Below are positions 19,136 to 35,919 of a stretch of DNA of 64,000 nt, piece by piece. The position numbers and the translations under genes are program-made. Position 1 is the stretch's first letter. Every line of letters begins with the position of its first letter. This DNA comes from Pseudovibrio exalbescens DSM 16456 (lineage in GTDB: Bacteria > Pseudomonadota > Alphaproteobacteria > Rhizobiales > Stappiaceae): assembly GCF_000422785.1 (NCBI RefSeq), contig NZ_KE383918.1, forward strand, positions 155,748 to 219,747. The letters run 5' to 3'. Under the pieces are notes generated by a model. The model did no database searches and was not told the origin of the DNA. It saw only the letters and a program-made list of their open reading frames with translations.

Positions 19136-20473
19136 TCAGAAGTCCCGCTGAACTCGGATGAGAACAGTGATGATGTCATTGTCACTTGGCGTGGTGAGCG
19201 TGGACCCACCGGGAGATACCGCGTTATCAAAGGAGATGTTGCGGTAACCCAGTTCCGTACCAATCTCGAAGCCGCTGACCGGCGTCCAACCGACTTTTGC
19301 GTTCAAGTCGAACTGATCAAAGTCGTAGAAGTTCTTGTTGTCAGCTTCGGCGTAAGACAGCTGAAGTGCTGAGTTGAACTCAGGTGTCCACTCGGTGTAG
19401 AAACCACCGGCGATGGACCAACCTTCAGAGGTACCGGACTGATTGCGCGTAGATTCTCCGACAAGTCCTGTCGGGAAGATATCTGTTGCATCAAAGACGG
19501 TTGCGCCCCAGTCACTGTGGATGTAGCCGAGAGCCCCGTTGGCGTATCCGCCCTGCAAGGCGAAGAAGGTTCCGCTCAAGAAGTTGCTGAAGTCAAGTTC
19601 AACACCGGCGCCGATAGCCCATCCCACTTCTCCGCTTGCGACGGAGGACAGGTACCGAACTTCCTGAACCGCACCCATCAACTGAGCGCTACCCCAGCCC
19701 TGGTCCACACGAATGTTACCAACAATGTTGGGCCAACGGTGTCCGCCGTATCCTTGGCTGTATGCAGGACCGCCAGCAGGCTGTGGATACAGGTAGGAGC
19801 CAACGTACAGGCCTTGCTGACGGAACGAACGGTCTTCAAAGGCCAATGATGCCGAGAAGCCGTTTCCGAAGTCTGCCGTGTAACCGGCAACCCATGGGTT
19901 GTCATCGGAATAGGCAACCGTCGTGATGGCACCGTAGGCATAACCGGTCCAGAAGTCGTAGAACGACTTGGCCTTACCAACGGTGAGGCCGCCAAACTGA
20001 ACGAAGGCGTAATCCAGCGTCAGCGAAGTCCCACCGGCAGAGCCGAATGATCCTACGTTATTGTCATTGCTTGGCCGGTCAACAACCGTTGAGGGCCTTG
20101 CATTGCTGTTGGCGCTGAACGTTGGTGTATCCACGGTGGCAAACATGTCGATGTAAGCGCGCAACAGGCCGTATTCGGTCTGCGTACGAGCATCCATCCG
20201 CAAGTAACCACGAGCGCGGGTCGATGTGTCGTTCAGGGTGCGGCGGTCCCAGTTGTTGGGGGCATCACCAAAGTCATTCCAACGGTATTCAGCACGGACA
20301 CGACCCCGGATCCGCAAGCAGGTTTCAGTGCCGGGAATGAAGAAGTAACCGTCGCCGTATGCGTCACAGATCTGGACGTAATCTACGGGCTCCGGGGCGA
20401 CGGGAAGATCCGCCGCATAAGCGGGGACTGCACCCATAGCGAGTGCTGCTGCAGTAAGTGTAAGTTTGCGCAT
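19136..20473 (-). CDS. Alphaproteobacterial outer-membrane porin (Porin_2/Omp2 family), copy 1
   Basis: 445 residues from the ATG at 20473, which has GGAG 7 bp upstream and gives a clean signal peptide MRKLTLTAAALAMGAVPAYA. The mature protein begins ADLPVAPEPVDYVQICDAYG, has the conserved Cys pair (QICDAYGDGYFFIPGTETC), then alternating beta strands and ends in VQRDF with the terminal Phe needed for outer-membrane assembly. The block RMDARTQTEYGLLRAYIDMF is typical of Omp2a/Omp2b-like porins. General diffusion of small hydrophilic solutes is the family role. Long AT-rich leader upstream. Confidence 0.94.
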   Translation of the reverse strand: MRKLTLTAAALAMGAVPAYAADLPVAPEPVDYVQICDAYGDGYFFIPGTETCLRIRGRVRAEYRWNDFGDAPNNWDRRTLNDTSTRARGYLRMDARTQTEYGLLRAYIDMFATVDTPTFSANSNARPSTVVDRPSNDNNVGSFGSAGGTSLTLDYAFVQFGGLTVGKAKSFYDFWTGYAYGAITTVAYSDDNPWVAGYTADFGNGFSASLAFEDRSFRQQGLYVGSYLYPQPAGGPAYSQGYGGHRWPNIVGNIRVDQGWGSAQLMGAVQEVRYLSSVASGEVGWAIGAGVELDFSNFLSGTFFALQGGYANGALGYIHSDWGATVFDATDIFPTGLVGESTRNQSGTSEGWSIAGGFYTEWTPEFNSALQLSYAEADNKNFYDFDQFDLNAKVGWTPVSGFEIGTELGYRNISFDNAVSPGGSTLTTPSDNDIITVLIRVQRDF

Positions 20474-21323
20474 TTTCGACTCCTGGTTTGGGTCCTTACC
20501 CACTCCTTTTACTAGGTAAAAATCACGTTATACTTGTCTCAATAAAATATAAGAGCAAGCAAACTCTGTTTTTATTGTGATACGCGAATTCCCTGTGCCA
20601 ATTGATTGCACCTGATCTCTTAATCATCAATAACTCGATTAAAAATAACGCAGGGTAAGTAATCGTCAGTGGGGAGCTGTTTCATTCCTGCAACGGTTTT
20701 CCATCAAAACTGTCAGAACTACATAATATGATAGAGTGGGTGCCTCCTGAATTACTTTAACTATCTGTTATTAAAGAGATTCGTGGGTGATGGCGCAGAG
20801 ACTGATATAAGTGGTGGGAGTCGACGAGTAAGGGGTATTGGACGCCTTCAGGGACGAATCAAGAGACTTGGAAGTCGCCGATTGCTGATTTGTTGTTTAT
20901 GGTAAAAAATATCAAACATAAAGTAATGGAAAGTAATGATTGAGTTTGGTTTGTGATCATTTCGGTGTGGGGCGTCGGGCTGGGCGCATCGTGAGGTGCT
21001 TGCCGCTCGCGTGGTGACCTGCACTTCCGTTCAGTATCAACGGCGGTATGGATTCATTGTGAGAAAGCCGGGGGCGGGGGAGTTTTGAGCTGCGCTGCAC
21101 CGCGTGCGCGATCTCGCGCCCTGTGTGCGTGTCCAGATGCAATGTGCGTCCGGATGCGTTCGTGCGTTCGTTCGTTTGAAAGAAACCGTGAAGATGGGCG
21201 TTCAGTTCCGCGCTATGGCGTTTGGTATACCTTCAAGGGCGCGGAAAGTGACCGAAAACGGTCTAGAAGCCTGCGATCTTCTGGTGAGCAGATCCCGGTC
21301 CAACGGCAAAGTGGTGGCTGAGG
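20474..21323. other. Intergenic region between the two porins
   Basis: About 850 bp. The part near 20480-20950 is clearly AT-rich compared with the surroundings and should hold the promoter and leader of porin copy 1. I found no reliable -35/-10 pair, small ORF or terminator for copy 2. Confidence 0.5.
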
Positions 21324-22631
21324 TTAGAAATCACGTTGAACGCGGATCATCCAGGTCATGATGTCCTGATCGCGAGGACGCGAAATTGGTTGCGGCCCGC
21401 CGGGTGCTGTTGCGTTGTTGAAGTCCAGATGGCGATAACCGACCTCGGTGCCGATCTCAACGTTGTTCACTGGCGTCCAGATCGCGGTGGCAAGAACATC
21501 TGTTTGCTGCACATCCCAAAAGAGTTTGTTGTCCGCTTCAGCATAAGATGCTTCAAAGACGGTGCTAAAAGTTCCACTCCAGTACTTTTGCAAACTGCCA
21601 ACCACCGACCACGCTTCACCCGTACCACTGCCGCGCCGTGGGGCGCTGCCGCCACCGGTTGGAAATACGGTACTGGCATCATAAACCGTCGCGCCCCAAT
21701 CGCTGTGCGCATAGGCCAGTGCCCCATACGCGTAGGTAGACTGCAGAGCGAACCGAGCATCACCCATGAAGGGCAAGTTCAGCTTCACACCACCGCCAAT
21801 GGCAAATCCCACATCGCCGTCAGGTAGCGATGACAGATATCTGACATCATGCAGGGCACCCATGATCTGGGCGCTTCCCCAACTGCCATCAAAGCGCAGA
21901 TTTCCCACAACATCGGGCCAACGCTGGCCAGCATATTCCTGACTATAGGACGGATCCAGATTGAGATAAGGCCCGACAAACAGCCCTTGTTGGCGATAGG
22001 CCCGATCCTCGAAGGAAAGTGAGGCCGAGATGCCTTGCGACAGGGGCAGGGTGTAGGCAGCGACCCATGGCTTGACATCCGAATACGCTGTCGCAGTTAC
22101 AGCGCCAAAGGCGTAGCCGGTGAAGAAATCATAAAACGACTGCGTCTTTCCCGCAGTCAAACCGCCAAATTGCACGAAAGCATAGTCCAGCCCCAAACTG
22201 GTGCGCCCGGCAGGGTCAAAACTACCTTGCTGGTTGTCATCGGATGGGCGGTCAACCACTGTTCCTGTTGTTTCCGAAAAGCTCGGCGTATCCACGGTAG
22301 CAAAGAGATCGATATAGGCACGCAACAAGCCATATTCGGTCTGCGTGCGAGCATCCAGCCGAGCATACCCACGGGCGCGCATGGTGGTCGCGTTTTGTGT
22401 CCGTCTGTCCCATGCATTGGGCTCATCACCGAAGTTGTCCCAGCGCAACTCTGTCCGAACGCGCCCCTCCACCCGAAGACACGTATCAGTACCCGGCAAT
22501 ACAAAAAAGCCTTCGCCAAATGCATTGCAAATCTGCACATATTCTGCAGGTGCCGTTTCGGGCAAATCCGCGGCCGTCCCGTAGGAGACGGGGAGGGTGA
22601 GAGAAAGGACGCTGATCGCAAAACGACGCAT
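21324..22631 (-). CDS. Alphaproteobacterial outer-membrane porin (Porin_2/Omp2 family), copy 2
   Basis: 435 residues from the ATG at 22631, with GGGAGG 8 bp upstream and signal peptide MRRFAISVLSLTLPVSYGTA. It keeps the Cys pair (CNAFGEGFFVLPGTDTC), the RLDARTQTEYGLLRAYIDLF block, and the C-terminal VQRDF of copy 1, and the two align along their whole length. Differences cluster in segments expected to be surface loops. The tandem pair resembles the omp2a/omp2b arrangement of Brucella, although that pair is divergent and this one is in the same direction. Confidence 0.94.
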   Translation of the reverse strand: MRRFAISVLSLTLPVSYGTAADLPETAPAEYVQICNAFGEGFFVLPGTDTCLRVEGRVRTELRWDNFGDEPNAWDRRTQNATTMRARGYARLDARTQTEYGLLRAYIDLFATVDTPSFSETTGTVVDRPSDDNQQGSFDPAGRTSLGLDYAFVQFGGLTAGKTQSFYDFFTGYAFGAVTATAYSDVKPWVAAYTLPLSQGISASLSFEDRAYRQQGLFVGPYLNLDPSYSQEYAGQRWPDVVGNLRFDGSWGSAQIMGALHDVRYLSSLPDGDVGFAIGGGVKLNLPFMGDARFALQSTYAYGALAYAHSDWGATVYDASTVFPTGGGSAPRRGSGTGEAWSVVGSLQKYWSGTFSTVFEASYAEADNKLFWDVQQTDVLATAIWTPVNNVEIGTEVGYRHLDFNNATAPGGPQPISRPRDQDIMTWMIRVQRDF

Positions 22632-23033
22632 CAGGGCGCCTCCCGGTTCACGCACGCACACTACCACAGACCACCCACAGCAATGCACTGGGTGCTCATG
22701 ATAGGATGCTAGTTATTTGAGTTTCGATGACTCCATGAATAGGGACAAATACGCTTTCTATCAGTAGTTTAGATACATTTACCACAGTTGTTGCTGTTAA
22801 TTGTCAGTTGTTTCGATGTGATATTGGGGAGATTGTCAATTAATATGGATATAAATAATCAATTTATAAATGAGGGATACTTGATCTTGTTTCGCCTGTT
22901 GCCGCGTCCGGTCATGAATCACTGCGTATAATCAACCTCTAGCTTTTCGGGCGGAGGTTGATGAGGCGCACCGTCACAAAGGCTTTGAAGCGGCGTTCTG
23001 CGTTGGCAGCATGGTGTTTAAGCAATTGCCCGG
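22632..23033. other. Intergenic region upstream of porin copy 2
   Basis: About 400 bp. 22700-22890 is markedly AT-rich and probably contains the porin promoter. No gene seen. The repeat island begins at 23034. Confidence 0.45.
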
Positions 23034-23863
23034 CTGGCCCGGGCTCGTTGGCCGGGGTGACCGCAGAGGGAGAGGGAATGCTGTCATCCTCACGCTCGCT
23101 GGACTATCTGGAATCGCAACCCCATCAGCGGCACTATAAAGCGGCACAGCGTTTGTGAGGCCCGCCAGACTGGGCTCCCCACGCGTGTCATCCCGGACAA
23201 GCGCAGCGCAGATCCGGGATCCAGCAGGCACTACGGCGTGCTGTGGTTTTCAAGGTTGATGCTAAGTGTTTCCCTGCGGCGCTGGATCCCGCGTCAAGCG
23301 CGGGATGACGGCTGCAAAAAAAGGTGCGAGGCTGTGAGCTAATGAAACCGACGCCCCTTTCCACCCCACCACTGTCATGCCGGCCCCCGAACCGACATCC
23401 AGAGTCACTAAGCCCGGCGGGTGCGGCAGAGGTCCGGCCGGACCCCGGCTCGTTGGCCGGGGTGACGGTGTTAGGGTTTAGAACCGGTTAGCCAATGGAA
23501 CGGACGCGCCTATTCTCCCCACGCGTGTCATCCCGGACAAGCGCAGTGCCGATCCGGGATCCAGCAGGCACTACGGCGTGCTGTGGTTTCCAAGGTTGAT
23601 GCTAAGTGTTTCCCTGCGGCTCTGGATCCCGCGTCAAGCGCGGGATGACAGCCTGCAATGAAGCACGAGGCTGTAAGCGAGTGAAACCCGTGCGACTATC
23701 CTACCCAACATTGTCATACCGGCCCCCGAGCCGGTATCCAGCCTGACAGGCGCTCCACCTCCGCACCGTCGTCATGCCGGACATCGATCCGGCATCCAGA
23801 GCCACAAAGCTCGACGGGTGCGGCAGAGGCCCATCTGGACCCCGGCTCGTTGGCCGGGGTGAC
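23034..23863. repeat. Hairpin-repeat island 1
   Basis: Ten short hairpin elements of 28-38 nt. All begin GTCA(T/C) and end CCAG when read in one direction, but have different stems. Type A (stem CCCGCGC): 23282-23309 and 23622-23649. Type B (CCCGGA, 38 nt): 23187-23224 and 23527-23564. Type C (CCCCGGC): 23034-23061, 23438-23466 and 23835-23863. Type D (GCCGGA): 23771-23799. Type E (ACCGGC): 23713-23741. An apparent E/D hybrid: 23374-23402. The linkers are also conserved, so a composite unit B-A-E-D-C of about 340 bp occurs complete once (23527-23863) and in shortened form once (23187-23466). This looks like a REP/BIME-type mosaic. No coding capacity. Confidence 0.9.
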
Positions 23864-23960
23864 AGCAGAGTGAGAGGAGATGTTGCGATTGTTACAAGAG
23901 CGGGCGTACCAGCGGCGTTCAAGGCTGTGTGCGGCGGCATTGCAGATCAGGATACGCCCT

Positions 23961-23981
23961 GATAGCCTTGACAGGGCTATC
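23961..23981 (-). terminator. Hairpin overlapping the rsmD stop codon
   Basis: GATAGCC and GGCTATC form a perfect 7-bp stem with a 7-nt loop; the rsmD stop lies in the right arm. There is no T-run, so intrinsic termination is uncertain. Confidence 0.35.
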
Positions 23982-24534
23982 CAGTGTAACGCAGGAGGGC
24001 GATTTGGCTATCGCCTTGTTTGCGCTGATCAACCAGCTCACATCCCTGCGGAACCATGAGCGCAGCGCGGGCATCTTCTTCCCAAACGATCACGGCGCCG
24101 GATGAAAGCCATCCACCGTCAATCGCGCTGGCCAATGCCGCTTCTCCCAACTCCTTGAGGTAGGGAGGATCCATGAACACCAGTGAAAACGGCTCCATGG
24201 TGCCCACGACCCCCAGTGCTGTCGCATCGCGGCGCAAAATCTTGGTGGCGCCCATCAGACCGGTCGCTTCGATGTTGCTGCGGATCAACCCGCGCCCTTC
24301 CACACCCATTTCAACAAAGGTGCAGTAACGCGCGCCCCGGCTCATGGCTTCAATGCCAAGGGCGCCGGTACCGGCAAAAAGATCCAGCACCCGTGCATCA
24401 TGAACCGGATTGTTGTCTCCGTGCACGAGAATGTTGAACAGCGTTTCTCTCAACCGGTCTGATGTCGGACGGGTATCCTGAGACTTGGGTGTGGCCAGAG
24501 CAGTGCCACGAAAACGTCCCCCAACAATGCGCAC
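23977..24534 (-). CDS. rsmD: 16S rRNA (guanine-966-N2)-methyltransferase
   Basis: 185 residues. RsmD hallmarks are present: MRIVGGRFRGTAL at the N-terminus, TRPTSDRLRETLFNIL, the SAM-binding loop VLDLFAGTGALGIEAMSRGA, and the catalytic DPPY motif (FMDPPYLKE). It methylates G966 of 16S rRNA. Start is a GTG at 24534, 3 bp after the stop of the pseudouridine synthase gene, so the two are translationally linked. Part of the segment bracketed by the hairpin islands. Confidence 0.95.
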   Translation of the reverse strand: MRIVGGRFRGTALATPKSQDTRPTSDRLRETLFNILVHGDNNPVHDARVLDLFAGTGALGIEAMSRGARYCTFVEMGVEGRGLIRSNIEATGLMGATKILRRDATALGVVGTMEPFSLVFMDPPYLKELGEAALASAIDGGWLSSGAVIVWEEDARAALMVPQGCELVDQRKQGDSQIALLRYTG

Positions 24535-24537
24535 GTC

Positions 24538-26184
24538 TTACTTTCTCCCTCTGGGTGACGAAGGCTTGAAACCGCCGGGCTTGCGACCGCGTGGGCCTCT
24601 GCCGGTATCGCCGCGGCCCTCGCTGGATCCGCGTCCCGGCCCCTTGTTACCCAAGGGCTTGCCGCCGGGCTTGCTGCTGGGTTTGCCAGGGCCACGACCC
24701 CGCCGCGGGGCCGGCGCTTCCCGATCCTCACGGGCTTCGGCGGCTTTTCGCGCAACGGGGCTCAAGGTATCAAAGCCGCCGCGCTGCGCCCGCACACCTG
24801 TTCGGCGGATATCCGGCTTCTTGGCCTCTGAAGCCGGGCGCGGTGCGTCGTCCTTCGGGCGGACATACTCTGCCTCGCTGCCATCAGCAGACCATACGCG
24901 CATAGGCTTTGTTGGCCGCCCCTCACCTTGGTCATCCCGACCTGAGCGGGACGGGGCGCCACGCCCTGCGCCGCGTTCGTTGCGATCATACCGGGTGGGC
25001 GCTGCGCGGTCCTGTCCGCGCGAAATGCCCTTGCGGGCACCAAATGGATGGCCGCGTTCATCAGAATCCTGCCCGCGATCCTTGTCACGACTTGCCGTGT
25101 CTGGCGTGGCGTGCACGGTGGCACGCCGGTCGTCCTTGCGCTTCTTCTGCTTGGCCAGTAGCGCTTCGGCTTCCTTGGCAGTCATCCAACCGCCACCTGC
25201 GCGCCCCTTGTTGGCGTTCTTTTTCTTTTTGTCCGCCTCCTGCTTGGGGGCGGGCTGATGCAGGATTGGCGCATCAAAATCCAGTTCGGCCTGCTCAACC
25301 AGACGTTCGCCCAGCTGGTCGCGCAACACGCGTCCACGAATTTCCCGCAATTCCCCTTCGCCCAAGTCGCCAAGCTGGAACGGACCGAAGGAAATCCGGA
25401 TCAATCTGTTCACCGACAGACCGAGATGCTCGAGAATTTTCTTGACCTCGCGGTTCTTGCCTTCGCGCAGGCCGATGGTCAGCCAGACGTTGTCCTTGCG
25501 AACGGTGTCCAGCGTCGCTTCAATCGCGCCGTAAAGAACGCCGTCAATGGCGACACCGTCCTTGATGGCATCCAACTGTTCCTGAGTGACCTTGCCAAAG
25601 GCGCGCACACGGTAGCGGCGCAGCCAGCCGGTGGTTGGCAGTTCGATCACCCGCGACAGCCCACCATCGTTGGTCAGCAGCAAAAGGCCTTCCGTGTTGA
25701 TGTCCAGACGGCCCACGGTAACAACGCGCGGCATGTCATTGGGAAGCACATCAAAAATGGTCTTCCGCCCCTCGGGATCATTGTTGGTGGTCACGGTCCC
25801 TCTTGGTTTGTGGAACAGCCACAAACGGGTGCGCTCGCGCTGGGGCAAAGGCTCGCCATCCACCACGATCTTGTCCTTGGGGGTTACGGTGAAGGCTGGC
25901 GTGGTCAATACGGTGCCGTTGACGACCACCCGTCCGGCCTCAATCCAGGTTTCCGCTTCGCGGCGCGAACACAGCCCGGCCCGAGCCATGGTTTTTGCAA
26001 TGCGTTCGCCGGACAAGACGGCTTGCGGTGCCGCGTTGCCGCTTGCTGCCGGTTTATCCGCCTTTTTCGTCCTGGTGTCTTTTCCGGGTTTGCCGGTTTT
26101 TGCTGCTCGCGGTCCCTTCACAGGGGCGTTTTTGGCAGTTTTACGTTTGGCTTTGTCGTCGGTTTTGTCAAAGCGCTTGGTCAT
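24538..26184 (-). CDS. rluB: RluB-family pseudouridine synthase with long disordered basic tail
   Basis: 548 residues from the ATG at 26184 (MTKRFDK); an upstream start would add an unlikely 28-residue leader. A Lys-rich N-terminal extension (about 1-65) leads to an S4 RNA-binding domain ([20 protein letters not shown] to VVDGEPLP), then the RsuA/RluB/E/F catalytic domain with Asp in [18 protein letters not shown] and [19 protein letters not shown]. From about residue 320 on, roughly 230 residues are Arg/Lys/Gly/Asp-rich and low in complexity ([13 protein letters not shown] at the end), probably RNA-contacting and unstructured. Likely target: 23S rRNA helix 89 region as for RluB; the symbol is by family. 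Operon with rsmD. Confidence 0.88.
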
Positions 26185-29231: not shown

Positions 29232-30025
29232 GTCATCCCGCGCTTGACGCGGGATCCAGAGCCGCAGGGAAACACTTAGCATCAACCTTGAAAACCACAG
29301 CACGCCGTAGTGCCTGCTGGATCCCGGATCTGCGCTACGCTTGTCCGGGATGACAGGCGTGGGGAGAATAGGCGCGTCCGTTCCATTGGCTAACCGGTTC
29401 TACACCCTAACACCGTCACCCCGGCCAACGAGCCGGGGTCCAGCCGGACCTCTGCCGCACCCGCCGGGCTTAGTGACTCTGGATGCCGGATCAAGGTCCG
29501 GCATGACAGTGGTGGGAGGGGAGCGCCTGTCATGTTGGATACCGGCTCGGGGGCCGGGATGACGCTGGCAGGGAGGCCAGTCTGGCGGGCCTCATAAACG
29601 TTGTGCTGCTTTATAGTGCCGCTGAGGGGGCTGCGATTCCAGATAATCCAGCGGGCGTGAGGATGACAGCATTCCCTCTCACTCTGCAGTCACCCCGGCC
29701 AACGAGCCGGGGTCCAGTCGGGCCTTTGCTATACCCGCCGGGCTTTGGGACTATGGATGCCGGATCGATGTCCGGCATGACGACGGTGCGGAGGTGGAGC
29801 GCCTGTCATGTTGGATACCGGCTCGGGGGCCGGTATGACAATGCTGGTTAGGATAGTCGCACGGGTTTCACTCGCTCACAGCCTCGTGCTTCATTGCAGG
29901 CTGTCATCCCGCGCTTGACGCGGGATCCAGAGCCGCAGGGAAACACTTAGCATCAACCTTGAAAACCACCGCACGCCGTAGTGCCTGCTGGATCCCGGAT
30001 CGGCGCTGCGCTTGTCCGGGATGAC
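29232..30025. repeat. Hairpin-repeat island 2 (inverse of island 1)
   Basis: Ten elements of the same five types as island 1 but in the opposite overall orientation: A 29232-29259 and 29903-29930; B 29317-29354 and 29988-30025; C 29415-29443 and 29689-29717; D 29479-29507 and 29753-29781; E 29535-29563 and 29811-29839. Read on the minus strand the order from the right is B-A-E-D-C, a spacer, E-D-C, B-A. The 29685-30035 stretch is, by eye, more than 90% identical to the complement of 23520-23880. Elements sit 80 bp after catB and 48 bp before purD's stop. No coding capacity. Confidence 0.9.
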
Positions 30026-35138: not shown

Positions 35139-35919
35139 TAGGGAAAACATCGCGGATCTGGACCTTTTGGTGGATGCGGCCAAGGAAGGGGGGCAGATCG
35201 CTCTCTCGTATTTTGGCAACAATCCGCGCACCTGGATGAAGGAAGGCGACAGCCCGGTATCCGTGGCGGATATCGAGGTGGACGAATTTCTCGCCGACAC
35301 ATTGCGCCGGGCCCGCCCTGAGTACGGCTGGCTCTCCGAGGAAACCGAGGATGACCTCAGCCGGCTTGACAACGCCCGGATTTTTGTCGTGGACCCCATA
35401 GATGGCACGCGCGCGTTTCTGGAAGGACGCACGGAATGGTGTCTGTCATTGGCTGTGGTGGAGAACCAGCGGCCCGCTGCGGGCGTGATCTATTGCCCGG
35501 TGCGCGATGAAATGTTCACCGCTGTTATTGGGCAGGGGGCGTTTTTGAATGGCGAACGCATAACGGTTGGCGAACTGGACACCCTCAACGGGGCCAATGT
35601 GGCGGGACCGAAGACACTGCTGGACTCGCAGGAGGCCAAAGCATCCGGGCTGGTGTACGCGCCTTATATCCGATCTCTGGCCTACAGATTCGCCATGGTT
35701 GCGGCTGGACGGCTGGATGCCGGCATGGCGCGAGCTAGAGCCCGCGATTGGGACCTTGCGGCAGCTGATGTTCTCCTTGCGGAAGCTGGTGGACAGCTGG
35801 TGGATATGCACGGAAATCGGCTTCTCTACAACAAATCAACCACAAAACATCCGGCTCTGCTGGCGTCTGCGCGTGGACTGTTTAATAAGCTTCAGGTAAT
35901 GGCTACTACCTATGAGTAG
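35125..35919 (+). CDS. Inositol monophosphatase family protein (CysQ-like)
   Basis: 264 residues. The lithium-sensitive phosphatase metal motifs are there: GWLSEETEDD, the signature VVDPIDGTRAFLEG, and WDLAAADVLLAEAGGQLVD. Members act on inositol phosphates or on 3'(2')-phosphoadenosine 5'-phosphate. The start is a TTG at 35125 inside the end of pmbA, with GGAAGGA about 7 bp upstream; no in-frame ATG lies before the first conserved helix. First gene of a run with DUF4170, DUF374, waaA and lpxK, which suggests a tie to envelope synthesis. Confidence 0.88.
   Translation: MQEADRENIADLDLLVDAAKEGGQIALSYFGNNPRTWMKEGDSPVSVADIEVDEFLADTLRRARPEYGWLSEETEDDLSRLDNARIFVVDPIDGTRAFLEGRTEWCLSLAVVENQRPAAGVIYCPVRDEMFTAVIGQGAFLNGERITVGELDTLNGANVAGPKTLLDSQEAKASGLVYAPYIRSLAYRFAMVAAGRLDAGMARARARDWDLAAADVLLAEAGGQLVDMHGNRLLYNKSTTKHPALLASARGLFNKLQVMATTYE

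Follow-up and report, generated by a model that had tools for sequence, protein, structure and literature searches.

CGTC-tagged REP hairpins of Pseudovibrio exalbescens: head-to-head heterodimers and BIME-like arrays at gene ends

The hairpin repeats in a 64,000-nt stretch of the Pseudovibrio exalbescens DSM 16456 genome (the window) are REPs of the CGTC-tagged superfamily, a kind already described by Di Nocera, De Gregorio and Rocco in 2013 (PMC3733652). The reading preferred here, with a probability of roughly 0.64, is that these CGTC REPs occur largely as head-to-head heterodimers, that many of the dimers are tandemly repeated as BIME-like arrays downstream of genes, and that the arrays turn over by dimer. 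It is built on the covariation of the stems, a heterodimer rule, preferred spacings, the position of the elements relative to genes and the differences between two species at common sites. The novelty lies in the comparative facts, namely a shuffle-tested heterodimer rule, different arrays at common sites and no detectable Y1_Tnp, which sharpen the question of how such repeats spread without settling it.

A recount in the window, requiring GTCA(T/C), an 8-bp stem paired at every position (G-T allowed) and a CC tail, gives 17 hairpins, of which 8 lie within 23187-23863 (island 1) and 9 within 29232-30025 (island 2) (Table 1). An earlier, sequence-only reading had the elements start with GTCA(T/C) and end in CCAG, and named five stem forms. 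The start and all five stem forms are borne out in the window, but the CCAG end is found in 14 of the 17 hairpins only, the others ending in CCGG (23438-23466), CCAT (29753-29781) and CCAA (29811-29839). A looser scan accepting at least 5 pairs finds 23 matches in the window, compared to 1-6 per sequence in a set of 10 second-order Markov copies. R1, a covariance model built from typed elements of the same genome, recovers 20 hairpins, 10 per island (those at 23034, 23374 and 29535 score lower), together with one marginal match outside the islands at 35713 (15.7 bits). The 138-nt unit 23515-23652, which holds the REP at 23527, is 96% identical to 23175-23312, and islands 1 and 2 have blocks of up to 363 nt in common (94% identity). 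Judged by eye, the blocks common between islands do not consistently terminate where hairpins do. Of the perfect REPs in island 1, the one nearest to the rsmD-like gene is located 114 nt beyond the stop of that gene. On the other side, two porin-like genes in tandem (19136-22688) adjoin island 1; the second matched PF02530 and the first was so judged from the similarity of its translation.

Table 1. REP elements of island 1, with island 2 and the neighbouring genes (positions in the window)
Feature	Position	Strand	Basis
Degenerate CGTC-type REP	23034..23061	-	R1 18.6 bits, E 0.0045
REP, stem ATCCCGGA, loop 15 nt, class Z	23187..23224	+	scan, R1, recount
REP, stem ATCCCGCG, loop CTTGA, class X; head-to-head with 23187, spacer 57	23282..23309	-	scan, R1
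Degenerate REP	23374..23402	+	R1 28.9 bits
REP, stem ACCCCGGC, class Y, tail CCGG	23438..23466	-	R1 35.9 bits, recount
REP, class Z	23527..23564	+	scan, R1
REP, class X; head-to-head with 23527, spacer 57	23622..23649	-	scan
REP, stem ATACCGGC, class Y	23713..23741	+	scan, R1
REP, stem ATGCCGGA, loop 6 nt, class X by the redefined loop classes	23771..23799	+	scan, R1
REP, stem ACCCCGGC, class Y; head-to-head with 23771, spacer 35	23835..23863	-	scan, R1
Island 2: 10 REPs between convergent genes	29232..30025	.	R1, block comparison, gene calls
rsmD-like gene	23977..24534	-	PF03602 among the families of 42 flank proteins, probably from this gene
Porin gene (PF02530), other side of island 1 from the rsmD-like gene	21324..22688	-	Pfam match

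The elements are not confined to one locus. The strict pattern GTCAYNCCGN{8,20}CGGNRTCCAG matches 125 places in the genome and its reversed form none, R1 gives at least 148 matches genome-wide, and a scan allowing at most one unpaired position in the 8-bp stem and requiring a CC tail gives 149 elements in the window and 21 other stretches, a number that is a lower bound. An element lies within 300 nt in seven of nine contig ends examined in this genome (L017, L018, L020, L025, L027, L076 and L078); the draft assembly thus breaks in arrays, and the true array size is probably underestimated. A run of N between 7693 and 8390 of a further array (L029) may be an assembly gap.

CGTC REPs are defined by an unpaired CGTC (or TGTC, CCTC) tag, an 8-9 bp stem opening with A-T pairs, a short unpaired tail that is mostly CCA, and loops of 4-5 nt with exceptions (PMC3733652). 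Complementary stem variants and head-to-head heterodimers are already known among them, the latter with "no obvious explanation", and the repeats are stated to be located at gene ends, mainly in alphaproteobacteria, and not to be associated with transposase genes. Clusters are described as rare, with Neisseria and Wolbachia as exceptions, which is a statement of frequency and not a criterion (PMC3733652). The Pseudovibrio elements share the YGTC tag, the stem, the CCA tail, the stem variants, the heterodimers, the gene-end sites and the lack of a transposase, but differ in their frequent clusters, in loops as long as 15-27 nt and in the pairing of unlike loop classes. The base preceding GTC, itself required by the scan, is C or T in 115 of the 149 elements, G in 31 and A in 3, and C or T in 139 of 143 elements of the related genome G008, introduced below. 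Stem pair 1 is A-T in 147/149 elements and pair 2 is T-A or C-G in 145/149, under a scan that demanded 7 of 8 pairs and a 5' arm opening with A and then T/C. The CCA tail, of which CC was required and the third base was free, is present in 146/149 elements here and 141/143 in G008. Loops in this genome measure 5, 6, 15, 25 or 27 nt, compared to the 4-5 nt tabulated, with exceptions noted, in PMC3733652. Clusters are not rare, as at least two elements occur in 42 of the 45 islands fetched, from stretches chosen where matches were listed.

The GTAG tag is absent, the tag being GTC followed by the A of the stem, which sets the elements apart from GTAG REPs and REPINs. The REPINs of Pseudomonas fluorescens are of the GTAG type. 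Regular spacing, alternating orientation and tandem repetition, the hallmarks of BIMEs, are all present, with some islands of another form. E. coli REPs fall into the types y, z1 and z2, joined as y-z1 or y-z2 mosaics (PMC8266576), so that sister stem types within one array are not as unusual relative to enterobacteria as the sequence-only reading supposed. E. coli BIMEs resemble the Pseudovibrio arrays in their mixed REP types and inverted, often tandem pairs (PMC8266576), but have a GTAG tag, a bulged stem and a RAYT in the genome (TnpA-Ec). The P. fluorescens REPINs are similar in having an inverted doublet as the apparent unit and ordered tandem clusters, but are linked to RAYTs (PMC3116915). 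Stenotrophomonas BIMEs are partly hybrid, and "selection for complementary mutations" has been suggested for them (PMC2817692), while Neisseria dRS3, classed as CGTC-1, forms large clusters (PMC3733652) and is likened here by description. The open-licence literature yielded no description of these repeats for Pseudovibrio: the genus name has 0 occurrences in the available text of PMC3733652, a genus-wide Pseudovibrio paper uses "palindromic" for CRISPRs only in the portion available (PMC5959193), and a letter search of the literature for three repeat strings found none.

The second arm of the stem changes so as to stay complementary, as had been claimed from the letters alone. Among 21 distinct elements, 98.8% of 168 stem cells pair; 4 of the 8 stem pairs never vary and 4 change on both sides. 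The covariation score is 0.429, compared to 0.122 in shuffles and at most 0.053 with slid partners. In a wider set of 74 distinct rows from 137 matches, whose alignment was fitted to the model, 97.2% of cells are paired and the covariation is 0.373 versus 0.103 when shuffled. The number of pairs varying on both sides is not above shuffles, being reached in 195/500 and 334/500 of them. A few elements with a mismatch were included in these counts. Three loop classes, drawn after the data had been seen and then redefined once, are distinguished: X is mostly CTTGA, Y has 6 nt and is mostly CCCCGA or CTCCGA, and Z has 15-27 nt. At stem position 3, class X of this genome contains C-G, G-C and A-T, class Y contains C-G, A-T and G-C (four of its G-C cases fall in X after the redefinition), and class Z contains C-G, G-C, G-T and A-T. 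Compensated types thus occur within each of the three classes, meaning that in this genome stem position 3 has been compensated in separate loop classes; the claim that structure is kept while sequence changes is upheld at four stem positions and inside separate loop classes. In G008, position 3 varies in class Z only and is fixed in X and Y, with G-T intermediates in 24 of 62 class Z elements.

Neighbouring elements within 100 nt are, as is typical of CGTC REPs, predominantly arranged head to head, with the tags outward: 46 pairs are head-to-head, 22 tail-to-tail and 12 direct in this genome, and 42, 16 and 5, respectively, in G008. Identical arms are found in 0 of the 88 head-to-head dimers of both genomes. 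This corresponds to 0/46 in this genome versus 5.8 expected (p 0.003) and 0/42 in G008 versus 9.1 expected, with none of 2000 shuffles as low. Both members have the same loop class in 3/88 dimers, two of which look like class-edge cases. Tandem dimer copies and islands common to both species are not independent, so the 88 dimers, and the 33 islands used for gene context, overstate the sample; counting each combination once per island, the same loop class occurs in 3/66 versus 23.2 expected, the lowest of 10,000 shuffles being 9.

A possible, though on balance doubtful, explanation of this rule is clearance, as suggested for heterodimers in PMC3733652: identical inverted hairpins would form long perfect palindromes that SbcCD-type nucleases delete. 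It is compatible with the main reading and would account for the complete absence of identical arms here and in G008 and for their rarity elsewhere (1/24, see below), but descent from a few mixed dimers gives the same pattern. Moreover, mixed dimers still fold jointly: in the minimum-energy RNA folds of the 88 dimers, counted with no shuffle control, the tags pair together in 71 and the tails in 59. Of these folds, 29 contain the separate hairpin of the first element and 32 that of the second, both together forming in a minority, so that a cloverleaf fold of the dimers is no more than a candidate. Extension of the dimers into an outer stem averages 0.86 pairs versus 1.13 in shuffles and is thus not above them.

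The spacings within dimers cluster near 35, 57-59, 63-66 and 70-71 nt although the spacer sequence diverges. Spacers of 32-37 nt make up 26/46 dimers here, where 35 nt leads, versus 12/42 in G008, where 63-71 nt leads and spacers of 63-66 and 70-71 nt account for 17/42. Single-linkage clustering of the spacers proved too loose and was replaced by families at 72% identity; 15 of the 34 such families have founders at 32-36 nt. Beyond the two species, 40 loci from 25 genomes, chosen for holding matches, yielded 24 dimers in 12 of the genomes; 23 of these dimers have unlike arms and one identical arms. A spacing of 31-36 nt is seen in 15 of the 24, with 11 of the 15 from a single genome (G115), and in only 4 of the 12 genomes. 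G115, from another family of the order, carries BIME-like arrays (L188-L191) with a spacing of 31-32 nt, in which GCCGGC stems with a 5-nt loop are paired with CACCGG, CACCCG or TGCCGC stems with a 7-nt loop.

Among the genomes sampled, this genome is closest to P. exalbescens, and G008 is the related genome taken as P. exalbescens M63 (RsmD is 83% identical to the P. exalbescens M63 protein). Alignment of the flanks of 25 islands here with those of 20 islands in G008 yields 8 common sites at which both flanks align. With a type taken as arm plus loop length and the sites compared by eye, the stem types are alike at 2 sites and different at 6, one of the six sharing a type. One common site holds four GCCGCA/CCCCGGC dimers here and four CCCGCA/GCCGGA dimers in G008, spaced at 34-35 nt with spacers from different families. 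At a further site (L015 here, L151 in G008), with 95% identical flanks, a single dimer in G008 stands against four of its type in this genome. Contraction accounts equally well for the single dimer, since no match to the DNA between the dimers was found in anything else examined. The flank identity of ~95% at L015/L151, compared to 71-89% at most common sites (one side of L023 reaches 96%), could possibly reflect recent exchange between the species. At the flank of a second gene the two species carry different elements. The common sites show that some island sites predate the divergence of the two species, with contents that differ in place. The stem-swapping raised by the sequence-only reading is thus seen as different dimers at common sites, but not as an exchange of single arms. 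The rsmD island looks newer than the common sites: no elements lie within 1.5 kb of rsmD in any of the 15 congeners, and the flanks are too diverged to define a junction.

Gene-end placement agrees with that of CGTC REPs (PMC3733652). Using simple hexamer-based gene calls and dropping 12 islands at contig ends, 33 of the 45 islands have both flanks called, of which 17 lie between convergent genes, 16 between tandem genes and none between divergent genes. Background gene pairs at the same loci, including the island-bearing ones, comprise 28 convergent, 86 tandem and 25 divergent pairs (Fisher 0.005 for divergent). No gene family common to the islands was seen beside them, the commonest Pfam families occurring twice among 42 flank proteins of this genome. 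Such positions, and the G-U pairs in the stems, would suit selection at the RNA level, with the hairpins acting at the 3' ends of mRNAs in protection, in termination or as RNase cleavage sites. This is considered very unlikely, as the strand is balanced in tandem islands (59 elements with transcription and 52 against, a test weakened by head-to-head pairing), the rsmD site is common to none of the 15 congeners, and an Rfam search of 20000-26000 at E up to 1 gave no match.

In the preferred reading of dimer-wise turnover, the machinery that copies or tolerates the elements would read the folded hairpin and its unpaired ends and not the stem sequence, so that compensated stems would stay in the family. 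Arrays would grow and shrink via tandem amplification and recombination between like units, replacing stem types dimer by dimer, and the rare new islands would originate from copied dimers or copied modules of several dimers. The arrays may persist because gene ends tolerate them, for which a benefit to the host is not needed.

The RAYT/TnpA-REP gene that the sequence-only reading proposed to look for elsewhere in the genome was not found, as no Y1_Tnp (PF01797) match at E 0.001 is present in this 99.92% complete genome. It is improbable, yet in line with the parallel to REPINs and BIMEs, that the hairpins were dispersed by a RAYT cleaving them at the GTC tag, one that has since disappeared from this genome or was supplied by a transient element. 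Across 150 genomes of the order, repeats occur in 18/24 genomes with Y1_Tnp versus 64/126 without (p 0.043, uncorrected for kinship), a weak positive association from a scan that scored 49 candidates per genome under strict filters and may miss weak carriers. Within the genus, 9 of 16 genomes also have a Y1_Tnp match, in some cases a broken one. However, 64 of the 82 repeat-bearing genomes of the order have no Y1_Tnp, and in a set of 41 related genomes that includes this one, repeats occur in 34 and Y1_Tnp in 14. None of the nine family members from other genera has Y1_Tnp, although all carry repeats (3-54 R1 matches each), and the two congeners without R1 matches (G001 and G013) both have it, the G013 copy with internal stops. 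A present-day Y1_Tnp is therefore not required, while past action may have taken place. The surroundings of 42 Y1_Tnp hits at 40 loci, selected in favor of longer frames, contain a GTCAT..ATCCAG pair within 300 nt in one case (G067) and a lone hairpin of this form, 536 nt away, in another (G048). At 8 Y1_Tnp loci from the genus, which partly overlap with these 40, R1 has no match. In agreement with CGTC REPs, the elements do not flank tyrosine transposase genes, the one nearby pair in 42 hits being judged fortuitous. A relaxase gene (PF03432) located 762 nt from one island was rejected as a mobilizer, with matches in 11/41 genomes and none in the repeat-rich G008.

The 2013 description left unanswered how CGTC REPs are spread (PMC3733652), and no enzyme for them is named in the available portions of PMC6006769 and PMC12306157. 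Under the preferred reading, the copying enzyme would be other than anything detectable as Y1_Tnp in this genome. A more specific proposal, itself unlikely, is that the replicating unit is an obligate heterodimer of unlike loop classes, head to head at a few set distances (mostly 35 nt here), in which a single-strand non-Y1 enzyme, the missing mobilizer of CGTC REPs across alphaproteobacteria, would recognize one member as the left end and the other as the right. The heterodimer rule is a concrete prediction for any candidate enzyme or clearance model, and ~150 copies without a detectable Y1 transposase, together with a related species carrying different dimers at the same sites, make this genome a good test ground for the spread of CGTC REPs.

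The G067 locus, where the repeats lie ~190-260 nt from Y1_Tnp, was considered as a CGTC "REPtron" and dropped, since an identical second copy of its 754-nt unit has no such repeats in its 6.5-kb stretch. Both copies (L110 2916-3669 and L111 2822-3575) end in their own GTAAACTGTCACC-type repeats. The unit encodes a Y1 transposase of ~230 residues and has many related repeats around it, as an element with its own terminal repeat family.
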